Assembly: GCA_024278215.1 (NCBI GenBank)
Contig: JAJRTR010000084.1
Span: 1 to 21,188 of the forward strand
Length of the DNA: 21,188 nt
DNA from: a bacterium
GTDB taxonomy: Bacteria; UBP15; UBA6099; JAJRTR01
Direction of reading: 5' to 3'
How positions within the stretch are numbered: the first letter of the stretch is position 1; each line of letters starts with the position of its first letter. Both the position numbers and the translations under genes were made by a program. The notes under the pieces are model-generated. The model made no database searches and was not told the DNA's origin. It was given only the letters and a program-made list of their open reading frames with translations. This document shows positions 42 to 16,513 of this stretch, piece after piece.

Positions 42-965
42 TCACGGCGTGTCAGGCGGCATGGGCGGCACATCTGGTGTTGTGACTTCCGGCACTCCCG
101 TCGTCGTGTCCGTAAGATCGTAACCGGCTTCCGCTGCGTTTTCGATAACATCGTTTATCGAATTTTCCATATTGTCATTCACTATTGCATCTATTGCGTC
201 GCCCGAATCACCTGCGCCGGACAGGTCCGCCGAGTCATCGCCGCCGCCTCCGGCGGATGCTCCCAACTCTTCGAGTTCAGCGCTGATTTCCGCGGATATG
301 CTTTCCATTTCCGTCCGCACTTCGGGAGCGACTTCTACAGGTTCAGGCGCGCCCTGCATTCCGGCGGCGACCTCCACCGCCTGGTTTTCTCCCAGCACAA
401 TATCCCCGCTTTCGGCAGAAATGCCGAGCAGCCCCGAAAGCATCGAAAATGACGATGCACCGCCGCGGACATCGACGAGAAACTCCGTGCCGCGCACTCC
501 CGCTATTGCCGTGGGCGTCCTGATGGTGAATGTAGATTCTTTCTTCAGCAGTTTTTTTGCCCGGACGAATGCCTTTCCTTTTAGTATATTCATGGATGTC
601 TTCTCGGACGCTTTTTTCAGCGAAAGTTCGTCGAGTGTCAGGCGGGTAAGTTCAAATACCTTCACAGCGTGGCCCCTGTTCCACACTAGCAGAGCCTGCG
701 AATCGGGGCCGGTCTTCAGTTGCGAGCCCTCGAACAGTTTGTCGCCTTCGCGCGCGGCGGTCCATTCTTCGTCGCCCGCGCCGCGCAACTGCACTTCGCC
801 CTGGATGTTGTGTATGGACGCGACGGGCTTGTCTGCGGCATAACCTGTCCGGATGCAGAAGGAAAGCGCTGCCGTAAAACAGAGTGTAAAAACCAGTGTG
901 GCGATGCCCGGCATCCGGCAAACTGCCGGTGTCTGTATATATGACAACTTCGTTTGATGTCTCAT
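42..965 (-). CDS. FecR-domain secreted/periplasmic protein
   Basis: This is a 307-aa exported protein with a FecR domain. I chose the ATG at 965 because an AAAGGA ribosome site lies about 8 nt upstream; the in-frame ATGs at 974 and 1022 are worse placed, and the latter would overlap the upstream gene. A hydrophobic stretch near the N-terminus (IATLVFTLCFTAALSFCI) acts as a signal peptide or anchor. The mature part begins with a strand-rich segment (GEVQLRGAG), then the FecR core around FTIRTPTAIAGVRGTEF. The last ~90 residues are acidic and Gly/Ser/Asp-rich, then Pro-rich, and look disordered. FecR domains of this kind occur in signalling and cell-surface proteins, often without a nearby TonB receptor, and none is seen here. 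It is the last visible gene of the 6324-42 operon, 46 bp after the large surface protein. The exact role is unknown. Confidence 0.85.
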   Translation of the reverse strand: MRHQTKLSYIQTPAVCRMPGIATLVFTLCFTAALSFCIRTGYAADKPVASIHNIQGEVQLRGAGDEEWTAAREGDKLFEGSQLKTGPDSQALLVWNRGHAVKVFELTRLTLDELSLKKASEKTSMNILKGKAFVRAKKLLKKESTFTIRTPTAIAGVRGTEFLVDVRGGASSFSMLSGLLGISAESGDIVLGENQAVEVAAGMQGAPEPVEVAPEVRTEMESISAEISAELEELGASAGGGGDDSADLSGAGDSGDAIDAIVNDNMENSINDVIENAAEAGYDLTDTTTGVPEVTTPDVPPMPPDTP

Positions 966-1011
966 GGTTACCATCCTTTTCACGGGTATACGGCGCCCGG
1001 AGTTCACGGAC

Positions 1012-4000
1012 TCAACGCGCAAGCTCGATTGTACACTCGGAAGCAGCCTTCAGCATGTAGCCTTTCCATGTTTCGAGCACGTCGCCGGGTTCAATCGCCG
1101 AGTAGCCCGAGCCGGGCACATAACCGAACAGCTTCGCACCGATCCGGCCCGCGGCTATCGCGGCCGGAAGACTCAGCGATTGTCCGCCGCATTCAATAGT
1201 TATATTGTCGCCCCATGTGAGCGCGCTCTCGAACGGATTGCCGATGAGGTTCCAGCCTTTGGCGAGCGGCACAGATACCGTCTGACCGGGCAGCGATGGA
1301 ACACCGTCGATATCTATCTGTGTCGCTTCGTCCGCATATATCCAGTAGCCCAGACCCGACTGGATATCCACGCCCTCTTTCGACGATGCCGAATAGTAGT
1401 TGTTCCCGAAATACTGGAATATATCAGCTACATCCAGATCGTCGCCCAGAAGTGTCAGCGCCTTTGTGATCCGCGGCTCGACAGGCACAGAAATAAGATT
1501 CCAGCCGGGGGCGAGTGTTGTCGACACGGTTTTGAGTTCAGGCAGACGCGCGACGAGCACAACCTGGAAACTGCGTGCGGTGCCGTCGGTGGTGTAAGAA
1601 TATCTTGTCTGTTCGAGCATATTGATTTCGTTGTTGTTGCTCATGTCTGTGAGATAGAGATCGTAGTAACCGCCGAGTTGCGGTAGTTGGCCCCACTCGA
1701 TAAGCATAGTGGTTCCGGATTCATTCGAGTCGACAGAGAAGTCCCAGACCTTGCAGACACCCGCTTTCGCCTCCTTCGGGCAATCCGGGTCAATGCCGAG
1801 GAGGTTGCGGAAATCGAAAGTGTACTTGCCGGGGTGCCTGGTCCATGCGCCGTGTGGGAAGTAGAGAGACGTGCGGTACGCGGAGAAGCCGGCGGGCGGC
1901 TCGAACAGGTCGCTGCCGTCGAACCCGTCGGCGGCATTCGCTGCCAGACCCAGCCGGTTGTCGCGGTCCGCGCTGTGCGCGCCGGTCGCGGAAATGTTTA
2001 TGTTCACGCCCGGTTTGTTTCTTATGATACGCGCCACGCCGTACTGGTTTTCCGAGCCGGGATCGTACACAAGCGACACGCCGCTTTCGTATACATATAG
2101 AAGGTAACCCGTACCGGCCGACATCGCCGTAGCGCTCAGCGCTGTCCAGCCTGTGTCGTCGTGGACGAAGGGTTTCACCGCGATAAGTTCCTGCGTATAA
2201 ACGGCATCTGAATAGCTGTAAGTCGTTCCGTCTTTCTTTACTTTTATATTGCTCCACGTGAAGTCCCAGTTGAAGGGCGGTCCGACCTGGTTCCAGCCCT
2301 GGCCGACCGAATACGCATAGTCCGCCGTGGTATCGACCGGCGCCCCGGTGAGAGAAACCTGCGACGCGCCGTCGAGCGGCTTGATCCAGAAGCCCTGCCC
2401 CGCGCTAAGCGATGAGGGCTTTTCATACTTGCCCATCACGGGATCGTCCTCGTTCGTGGGGTCCCACACGTACACAGTGTAATTGCCCGAGTCGAGCAGT
2501 ATGTTCAGTGAAGTCGCGTCCGGCGTCATCGGCAGCGACAACTGTGTCCAGGTCGACGGCGACACAGTCGCCACGCCTGTTATCTCGTTGCCGGAGATGG
2601 TGAATGTGACCGTGTCCTGTGACGAGTTACCGTGGTCGTCCGAAGCTGTGAGTCTTATCGTGTAGCTGCCGCTGAGGTTGCTCATGTCGATTGTACCGAG
2701 CGTGCCTGCCGAAACAGAAGTGGACGACGAAACCACCTGTTTCCACTTCGCGGGCGCGGATCCTGTTCCATATTCAAGTGTGAATGACGAGAAATTCGTA
2801 TCGGCGGCGGTGCCCGTAACAGTCACGGTGCCGCTTTGAGTCGAGCCGGTCGACGGCGCGGTTATAGTCGCAGTCGGCAACGTGCCGTCGTAGCTGACTG
2901 TCACACTCATGGACGCGGAGTTGCCGGCGGCGTCGGTGGCGATGACAGTGATCGTATTCGAACCGTCGGAAAGCGCCGTCGTCGCGGAATAGCCTGTGCC
3001 GGTCACCGTTGCCTGCGAACCATTGACGATAACTGTCGCGCCGGTCTCCACCGTGCCTGTTACGGAGACGGGAGACGAGTTCGTTTTTGCACCGTCCGCG
3101 GGAGAAGTTATGGTCGGCGAAGGAGAGGACGTGTCGACAGTCAGTCCGTCTGAGGTAACGACCGCGCTGTAAAGCCCCGCCCCGTTTTCGGCCTTGACCG
3201 AGAAATAATACGTCGTGCCGTCGACAAGAGAGAGCGCGGATTCGGTGATGGATAAAGTCGAGCTTGCGACGGAATCCCAGCTTACTACATCCGAAGCGCC
3301 AGCAGTTGTGCCAGCTGAATACCAGTACGCGCTTATGCCCGATTCGGTGTCTGTCGCAGCGGCCCAGTTTGTGGAGAGTGAAGTCGATGCGGAAGAGAAA
3401 TCTATGTCGGCGCTCGTGCCGTCATAGACATAAGCGGGATCGGAAGGAGGTGTAGTGTCCGCGCCGGATGTGGGAGTCGCCGATTGTTCCGACGTATTCG
3501 TGTCTTCGTTTCCGTAACTGTCTTCGGCGCGAACGACAAAGTAATATTTGACATCCTTTGTGAGTCCCGTGACAGAGTAAGTGGTCGTGGCCGACGTGGT
3601 AGCGTTGGCGGTCTCGAAATTCTGGCCGCCTGAATCTGTCGCGTAATAGATGTTGTAGGTGATGGGCGGCGAGTCGTCCGTCGCCTCGGTCCAGTAGAGA
3701 GCGATGCTGTCGCCTGTTTCGGCATCGGTCGCGGAATAGAGGCCGCTGAAGACCGGCGGTGTAGTGTCCGCGCCGGATGTGGGAGTCGCCGATTGTTCCG
3801 ACGTATTCGTGTCTTCGTTGCCGTAGCTATCTTCGGCGCGAACGACAAAGAAATATTTGACATCCTTTGTGAGTCCTGTGACAGAGTAAGTGGTTGTGGC
3901 CGACGTGGTAGCGTTGGCGGTCTCGAAATTCTGGCCGCCGGAGCTTGTCGCGTAATAGATGTTGTAAGTGATGGGCGGCGAGTCGTCCGTCGCCTCGGTC

Positions 4001-4836
4001 CAGTAGAGAGCGATGCTGTCGCCTGTTTCGGCATCGGTCGCGGAATAGAGGCCGCTGAAGACCGGCGGGGTGAGGTCGGCGGCAATAGTGATAGTCGTCG
4101 TAGCGAGAGTTGCCGTTATGTCGGTCGCGCCGTCGCTGCCCAGCATCAGCGTTTTTCTGTTGGTCGTGTAGTCCGTCGAGAAGGTGACGGATGTCGAGCC
4201 TGTCGCCTGCGCGGTGAAGTAGAATGTCGCGACCGTTACTGCCGTGCCGCTGGACGACACCGGCCCGGTCGTCAGGTTCCAGTAGTTCAGGTCGATCGCG
4301 CCGCCAGTGTTATCGACAGTGTTGAAATCAAACAGGTTTTCAAAATTATCTGTGTCGGTAACGTCGGTTACAAGCGTGCCCGTCGCGTCCGTCACCTGGA
4401 GCATCGCGGGGTCGAAGTCGATGAAAGCGTCCAGCGCCAGCGCGCTGTCTCCGTTGTATGTCACCGTGAAGTCGACAGCGAAAGTCTGCCTGTTCTCGAC
4501 AGTTGTGTTGCAGTTCAGCGCGAGTATTGCTATCGGATTCGTCGCGAGCTGATCGGAAATCGAGTCCGTTGCATATTTCCAGAAATCGGGTTTCATAATA
4601 TCTATGTCAATCGCATTTATAGTCTGATCACCGTTGAAATCGGCGTCCGGGTTGTAATTCGGGTCCTCAATTGATGTATTCCAGGCATCGGTGAACGGCC
4701 CGAGGTCGGCGACGTTTATCTGCTCGTTTCCAGTCAGGTCTCCCACAGCATCCAATGCGGCAGCCGGCCTCGCCGTCGCGACGAAAACCACCGTAATTAT
4801 AACCACTGCGATTGCGATCAGGCGCTTGCTGAACAT
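1012..4836 (-). CDS. Large secreted multidomain protein (dockerin-like, cohesin-like, FN3, Ig-like, GWN repeats)
   Basis: This 1274-aa protein has a signal peptide (MFSKRLIAIAVVIITVVFVA, cleavage near AAALD) and a strong ribosome site (AAGGAAGGGAT) before ATG 4836. Domains by eye are: a dockerin-like pair of EF-hand loops at ~30-95, of which DFNGDQTINAID is a textbook calcium loop; a cohesin-like beta domain at ~105-250 (FAVDFTVTYNG, FDPAMLQV); two nearly identical FN3 domains at ~257-359 and 360-462; a diverged third FN3 to ~565; and two bacterial Ig-like domains at ~566-745 (TSPADGAKTNSSPVSVTG). The C-terminal half carries GWNQVGPPF, GWNLISVPV and GWNLIGNPF motifs typical of large surface proteins in poorly studied phyla. 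There is no obvious sorting tail and no catalytic domain is recognised. It is probably a cell-surface or extracellular scaffold or adhesin, exported with the neighbouring barrel protein 27 bp upstream. Confidence 0.85.
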   Translation of the reverse strand: MFSKRLIAIAVVIITVVFVATARPAAALDAVGDLTGNEQINVADLGPFTDAWNTSIEDPNYNPDADFNGDQTINAIDIDIMKPDFWKYATDSISDQLATNPIAILALNCNTTVENRQTFAVDFTVTYNGDSALALDAFIDFDPAMLQVTDATGTLVTDVTDTDNFENLFDFNTVDNTGGAIDLNYWNLTTGPVSSSGTAVTVATFYFTAQATGSTSVTFSTDYTTNRKTLMLGSDGATDITATLATTTITIAADLTPPVFSGLYSATDAETGDSIALYWTEATDDSPPITYNIYYATSSGGQNFETANATTSATTTYSVTGLTKDVKYFFVVRAEDSYGNEDTNTSEQSATPTSGADTTPPVFSGLYSATDAETGDSIALYWTEATDDSPPITYNIYYATDSGGQNFETANATTSATTTYSVTGLTKDVKYYFVVRAEDSYGNEDTNTSEQSATPTSGADTTPPSDPAYVYDGTSADIDFSSASTSLSTNWAAATDTESGISAYWYSAGTTAGASDVVSWDSVASSTLSITESALSLVDGTTYYFSVKAENGAGLYSAVVTSDGLTVDTSSPSPTITSPADGAKTNSSPVSVTGTVETGATVIVNGSQATVTGTGYSATTALSDGSNTITVIATDAAGNSASMSVTVSYDGTLPTATITAPSTGSTQSGTVTVTGTAADTNFSSFTLEYGTGSAPAKWKQVVSSSTSVSAGTLGTIDMSNLSGSYTIRLTASDDHGNSSQDTVTFTISGNEITGVATVSPSTWTQLSLPMTPDATSLNILLDSGNYTVYVWDPTNEDDPVMGKYEKPSSLSAGQGFWIKPLDGASQVSLTGAPVDTTADYAYSVGQGWNQVGPPFNWDFTWSNIKVKKDGTTYSYSDAVYTQELIAVKPFVHDDTGWTALSATAMSAGTGYLLYVYESGVSLVYDPGSENQYGVARIIRNKPGVNINISATGAHSADRDNRLGLAANAADGFDGSDLFEPPAGFSAYRTSLYFPHGAWTRHPGKYTFDFRNLLGIDPDCPKEAKAGVCKVWDFSVDSNESGTTMLIEWGQLPQLGGYYDLYLTDMSNNNEINMLEQTRYSYTTDGTARSFQVVLVARLPELKTVSTTLAPGWNLISVPVEPRITKALTLLGDDLDVADIFQYFGNNYYSASSKEGVDIQSGLGYWIYADEATQIDIDGVPSLPGQTVSVPLAKGWNLIGNPFESALTWGDNITIECGGQSLSLPAAIAAGRIGAKLFGYVPGSGYSAIEPGDVLETWKGYMLKAASECTIELAR
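3451..4068 (-). repeat. Tandem duplication of a 309-bp FN3-encoding unit
   Basis: Two head-to-tail units lie at 3451-3759 and 3760-4068. Each is 309 bp and codes for exactly 103 residues, so the reading frame is kept. By eye they differ at about 11 positions, giving few amino-acid changes (for example ATSSGG against ATDSGG and KYFFVV against KYYFVV). The third FN3 domain just downstream in the protein is clearly diverged, so this duplication is recent. Confidence 0.9.
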
Positions 4837-11580: not shown

Positions 11581-11595
11581 GAGTGAATGTAACCA

Positions 11596-11646
11596 CTATT
11601 ACCTATAGTTAATAGCAATAGTATTCTGTTTATAAAGTTTTGTCAA
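11596..11646 (-). promoter_or_regulatory. Near-consensus promoter and operator-like repeat of the two-HTH operon
   Basis: On the minus strand TTGACA (11646-11641), a 17-bp spacer and TACTAT (11623-11618) precede the 78-aa HTH gene by ~38 bp. Just downstream of the -10 box, CTATTA (11596-11601) and TAATAG (11610-11615) form a perfect 6-bp inverted repeat with an 8-bp centre. A repressor bound there would block initiation, so autoregulation is plausible. Confidence 0.65.
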
Positions 11647-11693
11647 CACCTTTTCAAATGTTTTTATTTATTAGTTATTGTTGGTTATTATTC

Positions 11694-11881
11694 TTATGAG
11701 CCAATTGCAAAATTCTGATTCTGCTGTGGTCGGCTGCTATTGTCCATAGCTGCGTTGTCGGCGCGAAATCGTCCTCGACGTACTCTACAAAAGTACGCCT
11801 GCGAGGATTTTACACCTCCGCCTTACTCTGAACAATTTCGCTCGACCTCGCTATGAACATAATTTTGCAATTGGCTCTTAT
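11694..11881 (+). mobile_element. MITE copy A (180 bp) with TTAT target duplication
   Basis: The element at 11698-11877 begins GAGCCAATTGCAAAATT and ends with the reverse complement AATTTTGCAATTGGCTC. It is flanked by TTAT on both sides (11694-11697, 11878-11881). It is ~93% identical by eye to copy B and is also matched by copy C. It has no ORF, an internal hairpin, and arms that are imperfectly complementary along most of their length, as in fold-back MITEs. Confidence 0.9.
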
Positions 11882-12336
11882 AACGCTCTGTCTCAATCAA
11901 TTGTTGTTACTGCTGCAAATGGGGTAGCAATAGCCTTGAGATTAAAAGTATTGATTTAATTACCATTTAACTATGAAAGATATTGAAATCCATATCAAGT
12001 ATAGTTAAGTATACTTGAAAAATCAATGGTTTTAGATAATTATTGAGCTTTTGTGTATTTTTTATCAAGAAGAAGTCGTCATATCCTGAAAGCCGCGCCC
12101 GCGATGCCTGTTGCCTGGATTCCCGGTTGTGCAGGCACGGGATGATGGATTTATGCGAATTGCAATGTGCCTGACAGCTCCATGTCGATCGCGTGAAACA
12201 GGGGGTACGGCAGAGTTGCTTAATATGTGCTATAACTGTAATGAACGGGTGAATGAAAGACGCTAAAACATTCTGGATGATATGAATTCATGCTATGTTT
12301 GCTAATGTGTGTATTTGTTTCAATGTATTCATAATC
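11882..12336. other. AT-rich spacer without a gene; one inverted repeat
   Basis: No coding region is convincing here on either strand. CAAGTATA (11996-12003) and TATACTTG (12010-12017) form a perfect 8-bp inverted repeat with a 6-bp centre, which looks like an operator but has no gene within 500 bp. A GC-richer patch at ~12085-12150 looks unlike its surroundings and may be decayed sequence of another origin. Confidence 0.35.
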
Positions 12337-12364
12337 TTGACGAAATGGCGGCACAGGGTAGAAT
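12337..12364 (+). promoter_or_regulatory. Candidate promoter of the winged-helix gene
   Basis: TTGACG (12337-12342), a 16-bp spacer and TAGAAT (12359-12364) give a fair sigma70-like promoter; a TATAAT follows at 12370-12375. The leader to the ATG at 12528 would be ~155 nt, which is long and holds nothing recognised. Confidence 0.4.
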
Positions 12365-12527
12365 ATGGATATAATATGGAATCGCAAAACAGATTGTTTG
12401 CCGACGCTTATTTGTATTATTGAAAGATGAGGTGCATCACGTCGTTCAGTATGGCAATAGCTCAAGTGATGGAAGGCAATAAAAGACCGTGATCTTCGCA
12501 ACAGCATCTTAAAAAATGGAGAAAAAC

Positions 12528-12794
12528 ATGTATCTTGAAGATGTGATCGGGAGCAAAACAAAGGTCAGAATACTCTATACGTTATTTTCGAATGAGAACA
12601 GGGCGTTTTTTGAGAAAGAGCTTGCAATAACATGCGGTTCTTCTATTTCCGAGGTCAACAGGCAGATAGTGTCGCTTGTGGAATTCGGGTTGATTCATCA
12701 TTACCGGGAAGGCCGCCTGAAGTTTTACAGGATAAATCCCGCACATTTTCTTTATAAGCCTTTGAAGGATTTATTTCTGGTGTCACTTGACTGA
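12528..12794 (+). CDS. Small winged-helix DNA-binding regulator
   Basis: This 88-aa protein begins at ATG 12528, set by GGAG 6 nt upstream and by the usual family opening (MYLEDVIGSKTKVRILYTLF); the ATG at 12516 overlaps the ribosome site. It is a single winged helix resembling ArsR-like and nucleotidyltransferase-associated regulators: FFEKELAITCGSSISEVNRQ is the HTH, LVEFGLIHHYREGRLKFYRI the wing, and a short C-terminal helix follows (LYKPLKDLFL). No nucleotidyltransferase or other partner is next to it. MITE copy B is inserted exactly at its stop codon. Its function is unknown beyond likely transcriptional control. Confidence 0.78.
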   Translation: MYLEDVIGSKTKVRILYTLFSNENRAFFEKELAITCGSSISEVNRQIVSLVEFGLIHHYREGRLKFYRINPAHFLYKPLKDLFLVSLD

Positions 12795-12974
12795 GCCAAT
12801 TGCAAAATTATGATTCTGCTGCGGTCGGCTGCTATAGTCCATAACTGCGTTGTTGGTATAGAATCGTCCTCGACGTACTCTACAAGTACGCCTGCGAGGA
12901 TTTTACACCTCCGCCTTGCTCTGAACAATTTCGCTCGACCTCGCTACGAGCATAATTTTGCAATTGGCTCGACT
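12789..12974 (+). mobile_element. MITE copy B (178 bp) with GACT target duplication
   Basis: The element at 12793-12970 has the same terminal repeats as copies A and C and is flanked by GACT at 12789-12792 and 12971-12974. It lies in the same orientation as copy A. Its left end supplies the GA of the winged-helix gene's TGA stop; the uninterrupted target (GACTGAG) would give the same stop. Confidence 0.92.
12862..12905. other. Conserved internal hairpin of the MITE
   Basis: GTACT and AGTAC close a small loop. After a short asymmetric bulge, TCCTCG pairs with CGAGGA, and the outer bases extend it. The same structure is kept in copies A (around 11790) and C (around 16830), so it is a feature of the family. 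Confidence 0.5.
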
Positions 12975-13074
12975 GAGATTTCATAAATTTCGTAGTTCCT
13001 CGAAATGTTGTTGCAGCACAAGACTACTGTTTACAGCCAATCCTCAAAGATGTTGAGCACCCGGCCATATATAA

Positions 13075-13103
13075 TTGACATTGATGTGTTAAAAAAATAG
13101 AAT
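13075..13103 (+). promoter_or_regulatory. Strong sigma70-like promoter of the methyltransferase-like/GH2-like pair
   Basis: TTGACA (13075-13080), exactly 17 bp, then TAGAAT (13098-13103). Transcription would begin near 13110, giving a ~75-nt leader before the TTG at 13186. The rest of the 12975-13185 gap holds the weak palindromic copy at 13117-13139 and nothing else recognised. Confidence 0.7.
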
Positions 13104-13116
13104 ATCGAAGTGTTGG

Positions 13117-13139
13117 TCCGCATATTTCGCCGTTGCAGG
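13117..13139 (-). repeat. Palindromic 23-bp motif, weak copy 3
   Basis: Read on the minus strand, 18 of 23 positions match the motif at 9059-9081, including 13 of 14 through the CCGCATATTTC(A/G)CC side. It lies in the leader of the methyltransferase-like gene. With five mismatches it may be coincidence. Confidence 0.3.
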
Positions 13140-13185
13140 CAAAAAAGCGAGCGGAAGAGCTCATGATCCTGGTGGTCCTAAGAGA

Positions 13186-14034
13186 TTGTTTATTCCTGTT
13201 GACGACAATATAGTAGCCGGCTGGGACGTGATAGGCAGAGCGGTCGAGGAGAAAGACGGGAAGCTGATAAGGGAAAAGGTTCGAGAGATAGAGGTGTGTG
13301 GAGCGAGTGCGCTGAATGTGAGCGGCGCAATGAGTGACGGAGACGAGTTTGAGGCGCTTTGCCGGCTTTTATCGAATATATGTGAGGTGAGCGAACTTCC
13401 GGTGTCGCTGGATTCCGCCGAGCCGGGGATACTGGAAGCTGCGACGGAACATTACCTTGAGAAGAGCGGAAAAAACATACCGGAGACGACAGTTGGCGAC
13501 GGGGTTCCGTGGCTTATATACAATTCGATAACTGCTGAGAAACGTAAGTACGATGGTGTGTTGCCGTTGATTCACAAGTATAGAGCGTCGGTGATAGCGC
13601 TTACGCTTGATGGTGGAGGGATGCCGGTTGGAGCGCAAAAGCGTGTGGAAATTGCGATGGAACTTGTGGGCAGGCTGAGGGAAGACGGGATAGGAGAGGA
13701 GCGGATATTTGTTGATCCGCTGGTGATGCCGACGGCGGTCGACACGAGACATGGAGTTTCGATAATCGAAGCAGTCCGAAAGATAAGGGAAACATATAGA
13801 GGAATACATATAACGTGCGGATTATCCAACGTATCGCACGGGTTGCCGTCGCGGCGGATATTGAACAGGACGTTCCTGGCGATGCTGGCGGCGGTGGGGC
13901 TTGATTCGGCGATACTTGATACGACGGATAAACTGCTGATGGGAACGATAGCAGCGGCGCAGGCGCTTGCGGGAAACGATCCGTATTGCGCTGAATATAT
14001 CGCCGCATACCGCAGCGGGAAGTTTGACTTCTAG
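13186..14034 (+). CDS. Pterin-binding methyltransferase homologue (AcsE/MtrH-like)
   Basis: This 282-aa protein is a TIM-barrel pterin-binding domain of the dihydropteroate synthase superfamily, closest by motif to methyltetrahydrofolate:corrinoid methyltransferases. Those enzymes move the methyl of methyl-H4folate to a corrinoid protein. Family landmarks are SLDSAEPGILEA (~78-90), YNSITAEK, VDPLVMPT, and GLSNVSHGLPSRRILNRTFL (~215-234) with the conserved Asn and Asp kept. Two positions that I recall as pterin ligands look changed: LDxN-type reads LNVSG, and DSTN-type reads DSAE. The N-terminus FIPVDDNIVAG replaces the usual IIGERING. The start is uncertain: TTG 13186 is the only start codon in this frame after the promoter. 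No corrinoid protein or CODH/ACS gene is nearby. It overlaps the GH2-like gene by 11 bp. Confidence 0.78.
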   Translation: MFIPVDDNIVAGWDVIGRAVEEKDGKLIREKVREIEVCGASALNVSGAMSDGDEFEALCRLLSNICEVSELPVSLDSAEPGILEAATEHYLEKSGKNIPETTVGDGVPWLIYNSITAEKRKYDGVLPLIHKYRASVIALTLDGGGMPVGAQKRVEIAMELVGRLREDGIGEERIFVDPLVMPTAVDTRHGVSIIEAVRKIRETYRGIHITCGLSNVSHGLPSRRILNRTFLAMLAAVGLDSAILDTTDKLLMGTIAAAQALAGNDPYCAEYIAAYRSGKFDF

Positions 14035-16513
14035 AAGAATAGCATTCACATTATTGTGGCTGGTGCTGTATATCGGCGTATGCTATGGTTTGAGCCTGAG
14101 CGGATTTTTTGTGTTCTGGCAGGCGGCCATACTCATGCTGCCTTTCGCGGTGCTCGCTGTGGGGCTTTCGTGGACAGGTTCCAGACCTGATTTCAGTCTC
14201 CCGCCGCCCGGTGTGTCCGAACCCATAGAAGATATTGCGAACCCATCGAGAAAAGTTATCTGGCTCAACGGTCTCTGGGAATTCTGCACGGCAAAAGATA
14301 ATCGTATGCACAGGATAGAGATACCCCGACCGTGGAACACGATCAAAGGGTTGGAGTATTATGCGGGCGAGGGACGCTACAGGCGTCTTTTTTCGGTGCC
14401 GGAAGGCTGGAACCGGGGCTGTATATTTCTTAATTTTCGTGGAGTCAATTACCGCGCGGTTGTCTCGATAGACGGTCGGCAGGTCGGCGCTCACGAAGGC
14501 GGCTTCACTCCTTTCAGCATCGATATTACAGACCGTATCCCCGACAGCCGCGAGCGGGAAATCGAAGTTATTGTCGATAATTCATTTACCGAATCGACAG
14601 TCCCTAATGTGGCCGGGTGGAACAATGACGGCGGCATACTACGAGAAGTCTATCTCGAGACCCGCAACGAGGTACACATTGAAGATACCTACATCTATTC
14701 GCGGCCCGACCTGAAGGGGCGGGCGGAAGTTGCGCTGATAATAAAAATCCACAACCCGGAGTTGAAAGCCAGGGATTACAGGATCGAAATTGTGTCGCCC
14801 CAGGGCGCGGTGGTCCATACGCACAGGATAGAAGGCTGGACGATGCAGACGCTGCAGCACCGGTTGCAGTTGAACTTCGCTTCGCTGTGGAGCCCGGACT
14901 CGCCGCTGCTGTACAGTTGCCGGATATCCGTCGAAGAAGAAAACGGGGACATATACGAGCAGAGTTTCGGAATCCGCACGCTTGAATTTGCAGAGAAGGG
15001 GCTCGAGCTCAATGGGAATCCGATCAGAATTCGTGGAACAAACCGGATAGAGGAATCGCCGTTGCTGGGAAGAACACAATCCCTGGAGTTGATAAAGAGA
15101 GACATCGAAAAGATAAAGGAGGCGGGTTTCAACACAGTGCGTCTGGGAGCGTTCGCGGTGCATCCGAAAACACTGGAGTTGTGCGACCGAATGGGACTGC
15201 TTGTGCTGGAGGAACTACCGGCGTGGCACACGCTTGTGCTAGACCTTGGCGACCCCGGCTATCAGCAGGCGGCCGAGACGCAGCTGCGGGAGATGATCAC
15301 GCGCGACAGGAACCACGCATGTATCGCGATGTGGGGTCTGGGCAACAGCATGGAGGGCGGAGCGAGCGAGACGAGATGGTTTGTGGAAAGGTTGTCGGGG
15401 CTGGCGCGAGGGCTTGACGACAGGCTTGTGTATGTTGCCACGTATGATTATCGCAACGCGCACTATGAAGACCTTGTCGACTGCCTTGTGGTGAATATGT
15501 CGGGCAGTTCGGTCGAGGAGTTGAAAAAAGAAGTCGATGCGGCAGGTTTTGATTCGTCGACCCTGCTGTGGCACAAGGGAGTGGCAGCGCACCGGCCAAA
15601 GGGTTTGCGGTATCCGTCTGTGTCCGGCTCGCAGGAGCAGCAGGCGGCGTTTGTTCAGGATTTTGTCGATGCGTTTGATGACAACGAGCAAATATCGGGC
15701 TGGTTGCAGGGTTACCTCAGCGACTACAGGGACCCCGGCAACTTCGCCGGTGCCACGCCGTTCGTAGCGCACACCGGCTTCATGCGCCGCGACCGCAGCG
15801 AAAAGCTGGCATATCGCGTAATAAAGAAAAGGCTCACCGAGGGGATCAGAACAGAGATCCCAATCCGCGACAGGTTTGTGCCGATCACGTCATTCTCAAA
15901 AGCGCTCGCGATAATTTTTTCTATTGTTGTGATTTTCTTTTTTCTGTCGAATCCGGCTCTTTTCTCGAAGCTGGCATATAACCCGCCGGGTTTCACAGCG
16001 GTATTTCCGGCCGCGTGGCGGGTGCTGCTTGTCGTCACGCTTCTGTCTTCCATTTCAATCGCCGTAATAATAAACCGTTATTTCCAGAGTGTGCCTTCGC
16101 GCGTGTACGGATCAATCGACATGTCGTTTTTTATCCTCATTTCCATCGTTTTCAGGAATGAATTCACTCTTTTTCTCTGCACATACTTCGCTATCATCCA
16201 TCTGTGGATATTCGCAACGACACTGACAGCTTTTGTCTTACCCGACACCAGCTTCATCGAGTTGATGAACCTCACGGCGGCAATGTCTCTGCCCGAACTG
16301 CTGTTTGTAATATCCGCTTTCCTGCGAGTTCCGTTCAGGTACATAACAATCCCGTTCAATATATGGAAAATGACACTTGCCTACATAGCGCTGGGGCCTG
16401 TCGGAGCGCTGGTATATATTTTAGTTGCACCGTTTATCTTCATTGCCGCGCCGCTTACCGCCTTCGAGATGAAGTTCCACATCCTCCGCTATCTGCGCCG
16501 TCATATCAAGTGA
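14024..16513 (+). CDS. Membrane-embedded GH2-family homologue lacking catalytic glutamates
   Basis: This 829-aa protein (TTG start with GGGA just upstream, overlapping the previous gene by 11 bp) begins with two hydrophobic helices (~6-50). It then carries a full glycoside hydrolase family 2 layout: sugar-binding jelly roll (VSIDGRQVGAHEGGFTPFSI, WNNDGGILREVYL), Ig-like domain, and TIM barrel (IRIRGTNRIEESPLLGR, LIKRDIEKIKEAGFNTVRLG, LVLEELPAW). Where GH2 enzymes have the acid/base Glu (W-x-x-GNE), this reads MWGLGNSMEGG, Ser at ~442. Where the nucleophile Glu is expected, the sequence is LLWHKGVA. So hydrolysis is unlikely. Six or seven transmembrane helices follow (~625-815), and the tail ends RYLRRHIK. 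It is probably a membrane carbohydrate-binding or sensing protein. Which side the GH2 part faces is unclear: an even number of N-terminal helices after MTSRR suggests the cytoplasm. Confidence 0.82.
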   Translation: MTSRRIAFTLLWLVLYIGVCYGLSLSGFFVFWQAAILMLPFAVLAVGLSWTGSRPDFSLPPPGVSEPIEDIANPSRKVIWLNGLWEFCTAKDNRMHRIEIPRPWNTIKGLEYYAGEGRYRRLFSVPEGWNRGCIFLNFRGVNYRAVVSIDGRQVGAHEGGFTPFSIDITDRIPDSREREIEVIVDNSFTESTVPNVAGWNNDGGILREVYLETRNEVHIEDTYIYSRPDLKGRAEVALIIKIHNPELKARDYRIEIVSPQGAVVHTHRIEGWTMQTLQHRLQLNFASLWSPDSPLLYSCRISVEEENGDIYEQSFGIRTLEFAEKGLELNGNPIRIRGTNRIEESPLLGRTQSLELIKRDIEKIKEAGFNTVRLGAFAVHPKTLELCDRMGLLVLEELPAWHTLVLDLGDPGYQQAAETQLREMITRDRNHACIAMWGLGNSMEGGASETRWFVERLSGLARGLDDRLVYVATYDYRNAHYEDLVDCLVVNMSGSSVEELKKEVDAAGFDSSTLLWHKGVAAHRPKGLRYPSVSGSQEQQAAFVQDFVDAFDDNEQISGWLQGYLSDYRDPGNFAGATPFVAHTGFMRRDRSEKLAYRVIKKRLTEGIRTEIPIRDRFVPITSFSKALAIIFSIVVIFFFLSNPALFSKLAYNPPGFTAVFPAAWRVLLVVTLLSSISIAVIINRYFQSVPSRVYGSIDMSFFILISIVFRNEFTLFLCTYFAIIHLWIFATTLTAFVLPDTSFIELMNLTAAMSLPELLFVISAFLRVPFRYITIPFNIWKMTLAYIALGPVGALVYILVAPFIFIAAPLTAFEMKFHILRYLRRHIK

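Follow-up and report, generated by a model that had tools for sequence, protein, structure and literature searches.

The 21,188-nt stretch of DNA analysed here (the window: assembly GCA_024278215.1, contig JAJRTR010000084.1, positions 1–21,188 of the forward strand), from an order that belongs to candidate phylum UBP15, encodes a glycoside hydrolase family 2 (GH2) homologue that is embedded in the membrane at both ends and is almost certainly a pseudo-enzyme. The protein fits a family of membrane-fused pseudo-GH2 proteins in which a GH2 region with a lost sugar pocket is flanked by a membrane part at the N-terminus and a multi-helix one at the C-terminus. While GH2 and Yip1 are already known families, this broad family is apparently undescribed, and a search of the open-access literature found no description of polytopic membrane pseudo-GH2 proteins as a broad bacterial family. 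For its function, we give roughly even odds to a non-catalytic scaffold or adaptor in the inner membrane.

Gene and domain organization

The gene and its parts, together with the gene directly upstream, are laid out as follows:

13186–14034 (+): methyltetrahydrofolate:corrinoid methyltransferase-like gene (Pterin_bind; Pfam, best PDB matches 4o0q and 2yci)
14024–16513 (+): pseudo-GH2 coding sequence, 829 aa, TTG start, TGA stop included
14039–14095 (+): N-terminal membrane helix 1, aa 6–24 (hydropathy and model)
14105–14161 (+): N-terminal membrane helix 2, aa 28–46 (hydropathy and model)
14246–14668 (+): GH2 N-terminal jelly-roll domain, aa 75–215 (Pfam PF02837 and model)
14669–14983 (+): GH2 Ig-like domain, aa 216–320 (Pfam PF00703 and model)
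14984–15841 (+): GH2 TIM barrel, without catalytic residues, aa 321–606 (Pfam PF02836, structure matches, alignments)
15347–15349 (+): S442, at the acid/base Glu position, GNS rather than GNE (sequence alignments)
15572–15574 (+): H517, at the nucleophile Glu position, WHKG rather than xEYG/xEFG (sequence alignments)
15893–16510 (+): C-terminal membrane domain of about six helices, aa 624–829 (hydropathy and model)

The TTG start at 14024 aligns with the position at which the orthologues begin with ATG. All three GH2 domains occur in order and above the Pfam cut-offs (GH2_C, E 6e-25; GH2_N, 2e-10; GH2, 8e-9), and the complete domain order described in an earlier, sequence-only reading of this DNA is thus borne out by Pfam, by the predicted fold and by alignment to a solved structure. 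That reading had also placed membrane helices at both termini; hydropathy and the model agree on two at the N-terminus and about six at the C-terminus, the latter with cores near aa 629–647, 665–683, 714–732, 748–766, 774–792 and 796–814. The window gene and its orthologues (clade A) typically encode two N-terminal helices; clades B and C and the relatives with intact Glu residues (see below) usually have one.

By fold family, the protein is a GH2 member. A sequence search matched it to 135 distinct PDB sequences of GH2 enzymes (best E 3e-45). An AlphaFold2 model from a 68-sequence alignment, which superseded a poor first model from seven sequences (pLDDT 48.7), reached pLDDT 83.8 and pTM 0.84, with confidence above 90 across most of the GH2 part and about 50–80 in the membrane part. 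Structure prediction had been proposed earlier as a check, and in a structure search residues 69–607 of the model proved beta-glucuronidase-like (Z 40.6, rmsd 2.4 Å over 538 residues).

Loss of the catalytic residues and sugar pocket

The catalytic positions were compared by sequence alignment. Against a solved GH2 structure (6d1p), WGLGN-S in the window protein aligns with WGLGN-E, which places S442 at the acid/base Glu; alignment with eight soluble GH2 proteins of the compared genomes again puts S442 at the acid/base site and H517, in WHKG, at the nucleophile site. These soluble controls carry E, E, H, H and N in eight of eight cases. Four distinct clade A sequences have S, R, D and N at the acid/base position and H, L, H and F at the nucleophile position, and the other orthologues of the order show the state seen in genome G001. 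Both Glu residues are absent in all seven clade A genomes, as the sequence-only reading had seen for the window protein, and among approximately 42 members of the related clade C neither position holds a fixed residue.

The losses extend to the pocket. Clade A lacks the His of RGVxxHE, the His and Tyr of SHY, the Tyr and GWY of NxYxGWY, and the barrel Trp; in the window protein the −1 subsite reads I342, A376, a deleted GWY and G563, leaving N441 as its only remaining residue, itself not fixed across clade A. By contrast with these positions, E397, G519 and D567, which support the fold, do not vary within clade A, and the earlier remark that the surrounding GH2 motifs are well kept therefore stands for the fold but not for the substrate pocket. 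Judged by sequence comparison, the protein is almost certainly not an active GH2 enzyme, as it is without the acid/base Glu, the nucleophile Glu and all of the −1 subsite but N441. With the whole sugar pocket lost and the fold residues kept, carbohydrate binding through the GH2 pocket is also unlikely, and the suggestion of a carbohydrate sensor or binder that uses the canonical pocket is disfavoured accordingly, its positions not being conserved in clade A.

Might catalysis have been relocated rather than lost? E444, two residues past S442, is invariant in clade A and could conceivably act with water or another carboxylate, and some glycosidases function without a protein nucleophile. We nevertheless regard a relocated active site as very improbable: no clade A member has Asp or Glu at the nucleophile position, the pocket His, Tyr and Trp residues are gone, and conservation is lowest in the barrel half that bears the active-site loops.

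Evidence against artefact and decay

The architecture recurs in six further genomes of the order, each assembled independently (one copy is cut by a contig end), and both Glu residues are absent from all of them. As seven genomes agree, a frame or assembly artefact is ruled out, and the membrane part that might have arisen from one is genuine. Pseudogene decay is likewise ruled out, in keeping with the earlier view that this is not simple decay, by dN/dS values of 0.05–0.10 over the whole protein in close orthologue pairs, a sign of strong purifying selection.

The pattern of conservation differs from that of soluble GH2 proteins. Within clade A the beta-domains are best kept (identity 0.50–0.65) and the second barrel half is lowest among the GH2 parts (0.33–0.44), whereas for soluble GH2 orthologues of these genomes conservation peaks in the first half of the barrel and is poorest in the Ig domain. 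This shift is suggestive of a function that may have moved off the active site.

Distribution and relatives

Each of the seven genomes examined from the order carries a clade A gene. When 84,980 species genomes were scanned with two peptide patterns, a method that would miss distant members, six clade A records came back, all from MAGs. Other membrane pseudo-GH2 proteins occur beside clade A in the order: clade B (816–825 aa, pocket lost) in G000, G001, G003, G004 and G006, and a third paralogue family, clade E (approximately 650–785 aa, pocket lost; L067:6607–8919 (+), L174–L177), in G000, G001, G003, G004 and G005, where the G005 copy is cut by a contig end. Outside the order, clade C proteins with an N-terminal helix, a dead GH2 region and a C-terminal membrane domain are found in many families, and within one other phylum, that of genome G051, a strong clade C match (E <1e-70) occurs in 49 of 82 genomes, at about one per genome. 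A homologue search, proposed at the outset as a further check, has thus recovered relatives with both Glu losses and a C-terminal membrane domain across the order and beyond. The architecture, which the sequence-only reading did not know for GH2, is common to a broad family in several phyla.

Two relatives, L014/L172 (genome G046) and L159/L173 (genome G272), are membrane-fused GH2 proteins with both Glu residues and an intact pocket. Proteins of the L014 and L159 type possibly represent the ancestral, active state, as membrane fusion may predate active-site loss given that these two retain both Glu residues. In the tree, membrane-fused GH2 proteins fall on one side of a branch and soluble ones on the other (support 85/80), which allows, though does not demonstrate, a single origin of the membrane-fused proteins.

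The membrane domain and its topology

In profile comparisons the clade C membrane domain matches Yip1 (hhalign probability 96–97%, E 4e-9 to 7e-11), where the Yip1 profile was built from genome hits and the controls gave E ~1 for shuffled profiles and 0.025 for one reversed profile. One fusion is also matched directly by PF04893 (E 3.4e-4), below the family's curated cut-off. On these sequence profiles, we assign the clade C domain to the Yip1 family. The same comparison yields no significant similarity for clades A, B or D or for the intact-Glu relatives; the window's clade scores 16–17 against the Yip1 profile, where a reversed-profile control scores about 12, and a Pfam scan of the isolated membrane domains gave no match above cut-off. 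We found no GH–Yip1 fusion in the open-access literature.

These matches bear on a second alternative, that the protein serves in membrane transport or lipid handling and that its GH2 part does no more than cap a Yip1-like membrane domain structurally. The idea draws on the clade C matches, yet the likeness fades to non-significance in the window's own clade, and bacterial Yip1 proteins are not known to have an established role in transport; we consider it rather unlikely.

Topology appears to vary within the family. Clades B and C and the intact-Glu relatives would hold their GH2 domain outside the cytoplasm, given their usually single N-terminal helix and, in clade C and L014, a strongly positive first C-terminal loop. 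In clade A, the loop between C-terminal helices two and three is rich in R and K and the C-terminus is positive, with alternate loops neutral or negative. By the positive-inside rule, and from these charges alone, the clade A GH2 domain is expected to be cytoplasmic, although a negative stretch right after the second helix counts against this placement.

Gene neighbourhood

In every one of the seven clade A genomes, the gene immediately upstream of pseudo-GH2 is the methyltransferase-like one; in the window its end overlaps the pseudo-GH2 start by 11 nt. A stop/start overlap is seen wherever the junction was read (the window and four others), suggesting translational coupling of the two genes. 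In four relatives gyrB lies downstream. Elsewhere in the family the company is different: smc is directly downstream in 18 of the 42 clade C loci read, including those of G007, G061, G080 and G301 outside the G051-phylum set. It lies directly 3′ of clade C genes in L061 (11592–15131), L063, L066 and others, followed in L061 and L066 by a GWxTD-like gene.

In the loci read, no glycan-processing or polysaccharide cluster surrounds the clade A, clade B or annotated clade C genes, with one exception (L064), where a Wzi-like capsule-assembly gene lies two genes from the clade C member. Within the window itself, 42–4836 (−) holds a FecR-domain protein beside a 1274-aa fibronectin/dockerin-like repeat protein, and relatives of this FecR-domain protein also lie near pseudo-GH2 genes in L052, L053 and L055. 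The approximately 1.6 kb at 11581–13185 holds no convincing gene or Rfam match, and Rfam gave no match anywhere in the window.

Possible function

A third alternative is that the protein senses or binds a carbohydrate or lipid-linked glycan, where the dead barrel or the jelly-roll would hold the glycan and the membrane domain would signal or move the ligand. Dead glycosidases can be reused as binding modules, as in Klotho; here the modelled GH2 fold is intact and the jelly-roll is among the best-conserved parts of clade A. Set against this are a canonical pocket that is lost and variable among orthologues, the scarcity of glycan genes nearby in the loci read, and a GH2 domain that is predicted to be cytoplasmic in clade A. 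We give this reading about one chance in four, which makes it the next most likely after the scaffold.

We instead lean, with about as much confidence as reservation, toward a scaffold or adaptor, in which the GH2 fold would be retained as a rigid, non-catalytic module on the membrane domain and its surface would hold another protein at the membrane, presumably without binding or cutting sugar. The sequence-only reading had offered a glycan scaffold among its options; scaffold is the best of those options, while the glycan part finds no context in the neighbourhoods read. In clade A the methyltransferase-like protein is a candidate partner, as its gene overlaps from upstream and it would lie on the same predicted side as the GH2 domain, although gene overlap alone is no proof of interaction. 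Because the neighbours in other clades differ (smc, GWxTD), such a partner cannot be the family-wide function. Counting against the scaffold reading are the invariance of E444 in clade A and the chance that conserved barrel residues could still bind a ligand.

A fuller scenario, to which we attach only a slim chance, would have an active GH2 enzyme fused once to a Yip1-like domain and catalysis lost later, with the UBP15 protein also flipped in the membrane, which would bring the dead enzyme into the cytoplasm to dock a co-translated methyltransferase of C1 metabolism. Whether fusion came before loss can be tested with the relatives that combine this architecture with intact Glu residues.

These proteins matter for annotation, as their domain content may lead to their being called GH2 glycosidases and so inflate the apparent sugar degradation of uncultured phyla, even though they cannot work by the GH2 mechanism. 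Further, a conserved and widespread membrane pseudo-enzyme, in other phyla often encoded next to smc and here by a gene that overlaps that of a methyltransferase, points to a membrane function. On GH2 pseudo-enzymes we found nothing relevant in the open-access literature.

Comparison with known systems

The closest structural counterparts are GH2 beta-glucuronidases and beta-galacturonidases (PDB 5z1a, 6ncx and 6xxw), with which the window protein has in common the order and fold of the jelly-roll, Ig and TIM-barrel domains (22–26% identity over 520–540 residues, 2.1–2.5 Å). Unlike these enzymes, it is without both catalytic Glu residues and most of the sugar pocket and carries membrane helices at its two termini; the structural matches span the GH2 part only. 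To the Yip1 family (PF04893) the likeness is a multi-helix membrane domain of approximately 200 aa, with homology in the related clade C and without a significant sequence match in the window's clade. Finally, Klotho is a GH1-like, single-pass co-receptor of animals, and thus of another GH family, and common descent is not implied; even so, the two are alike in a dead glycosidase fold that is carried on a membrane protein, which in the window protein, as in Klotho, may have been reused as a binding module.
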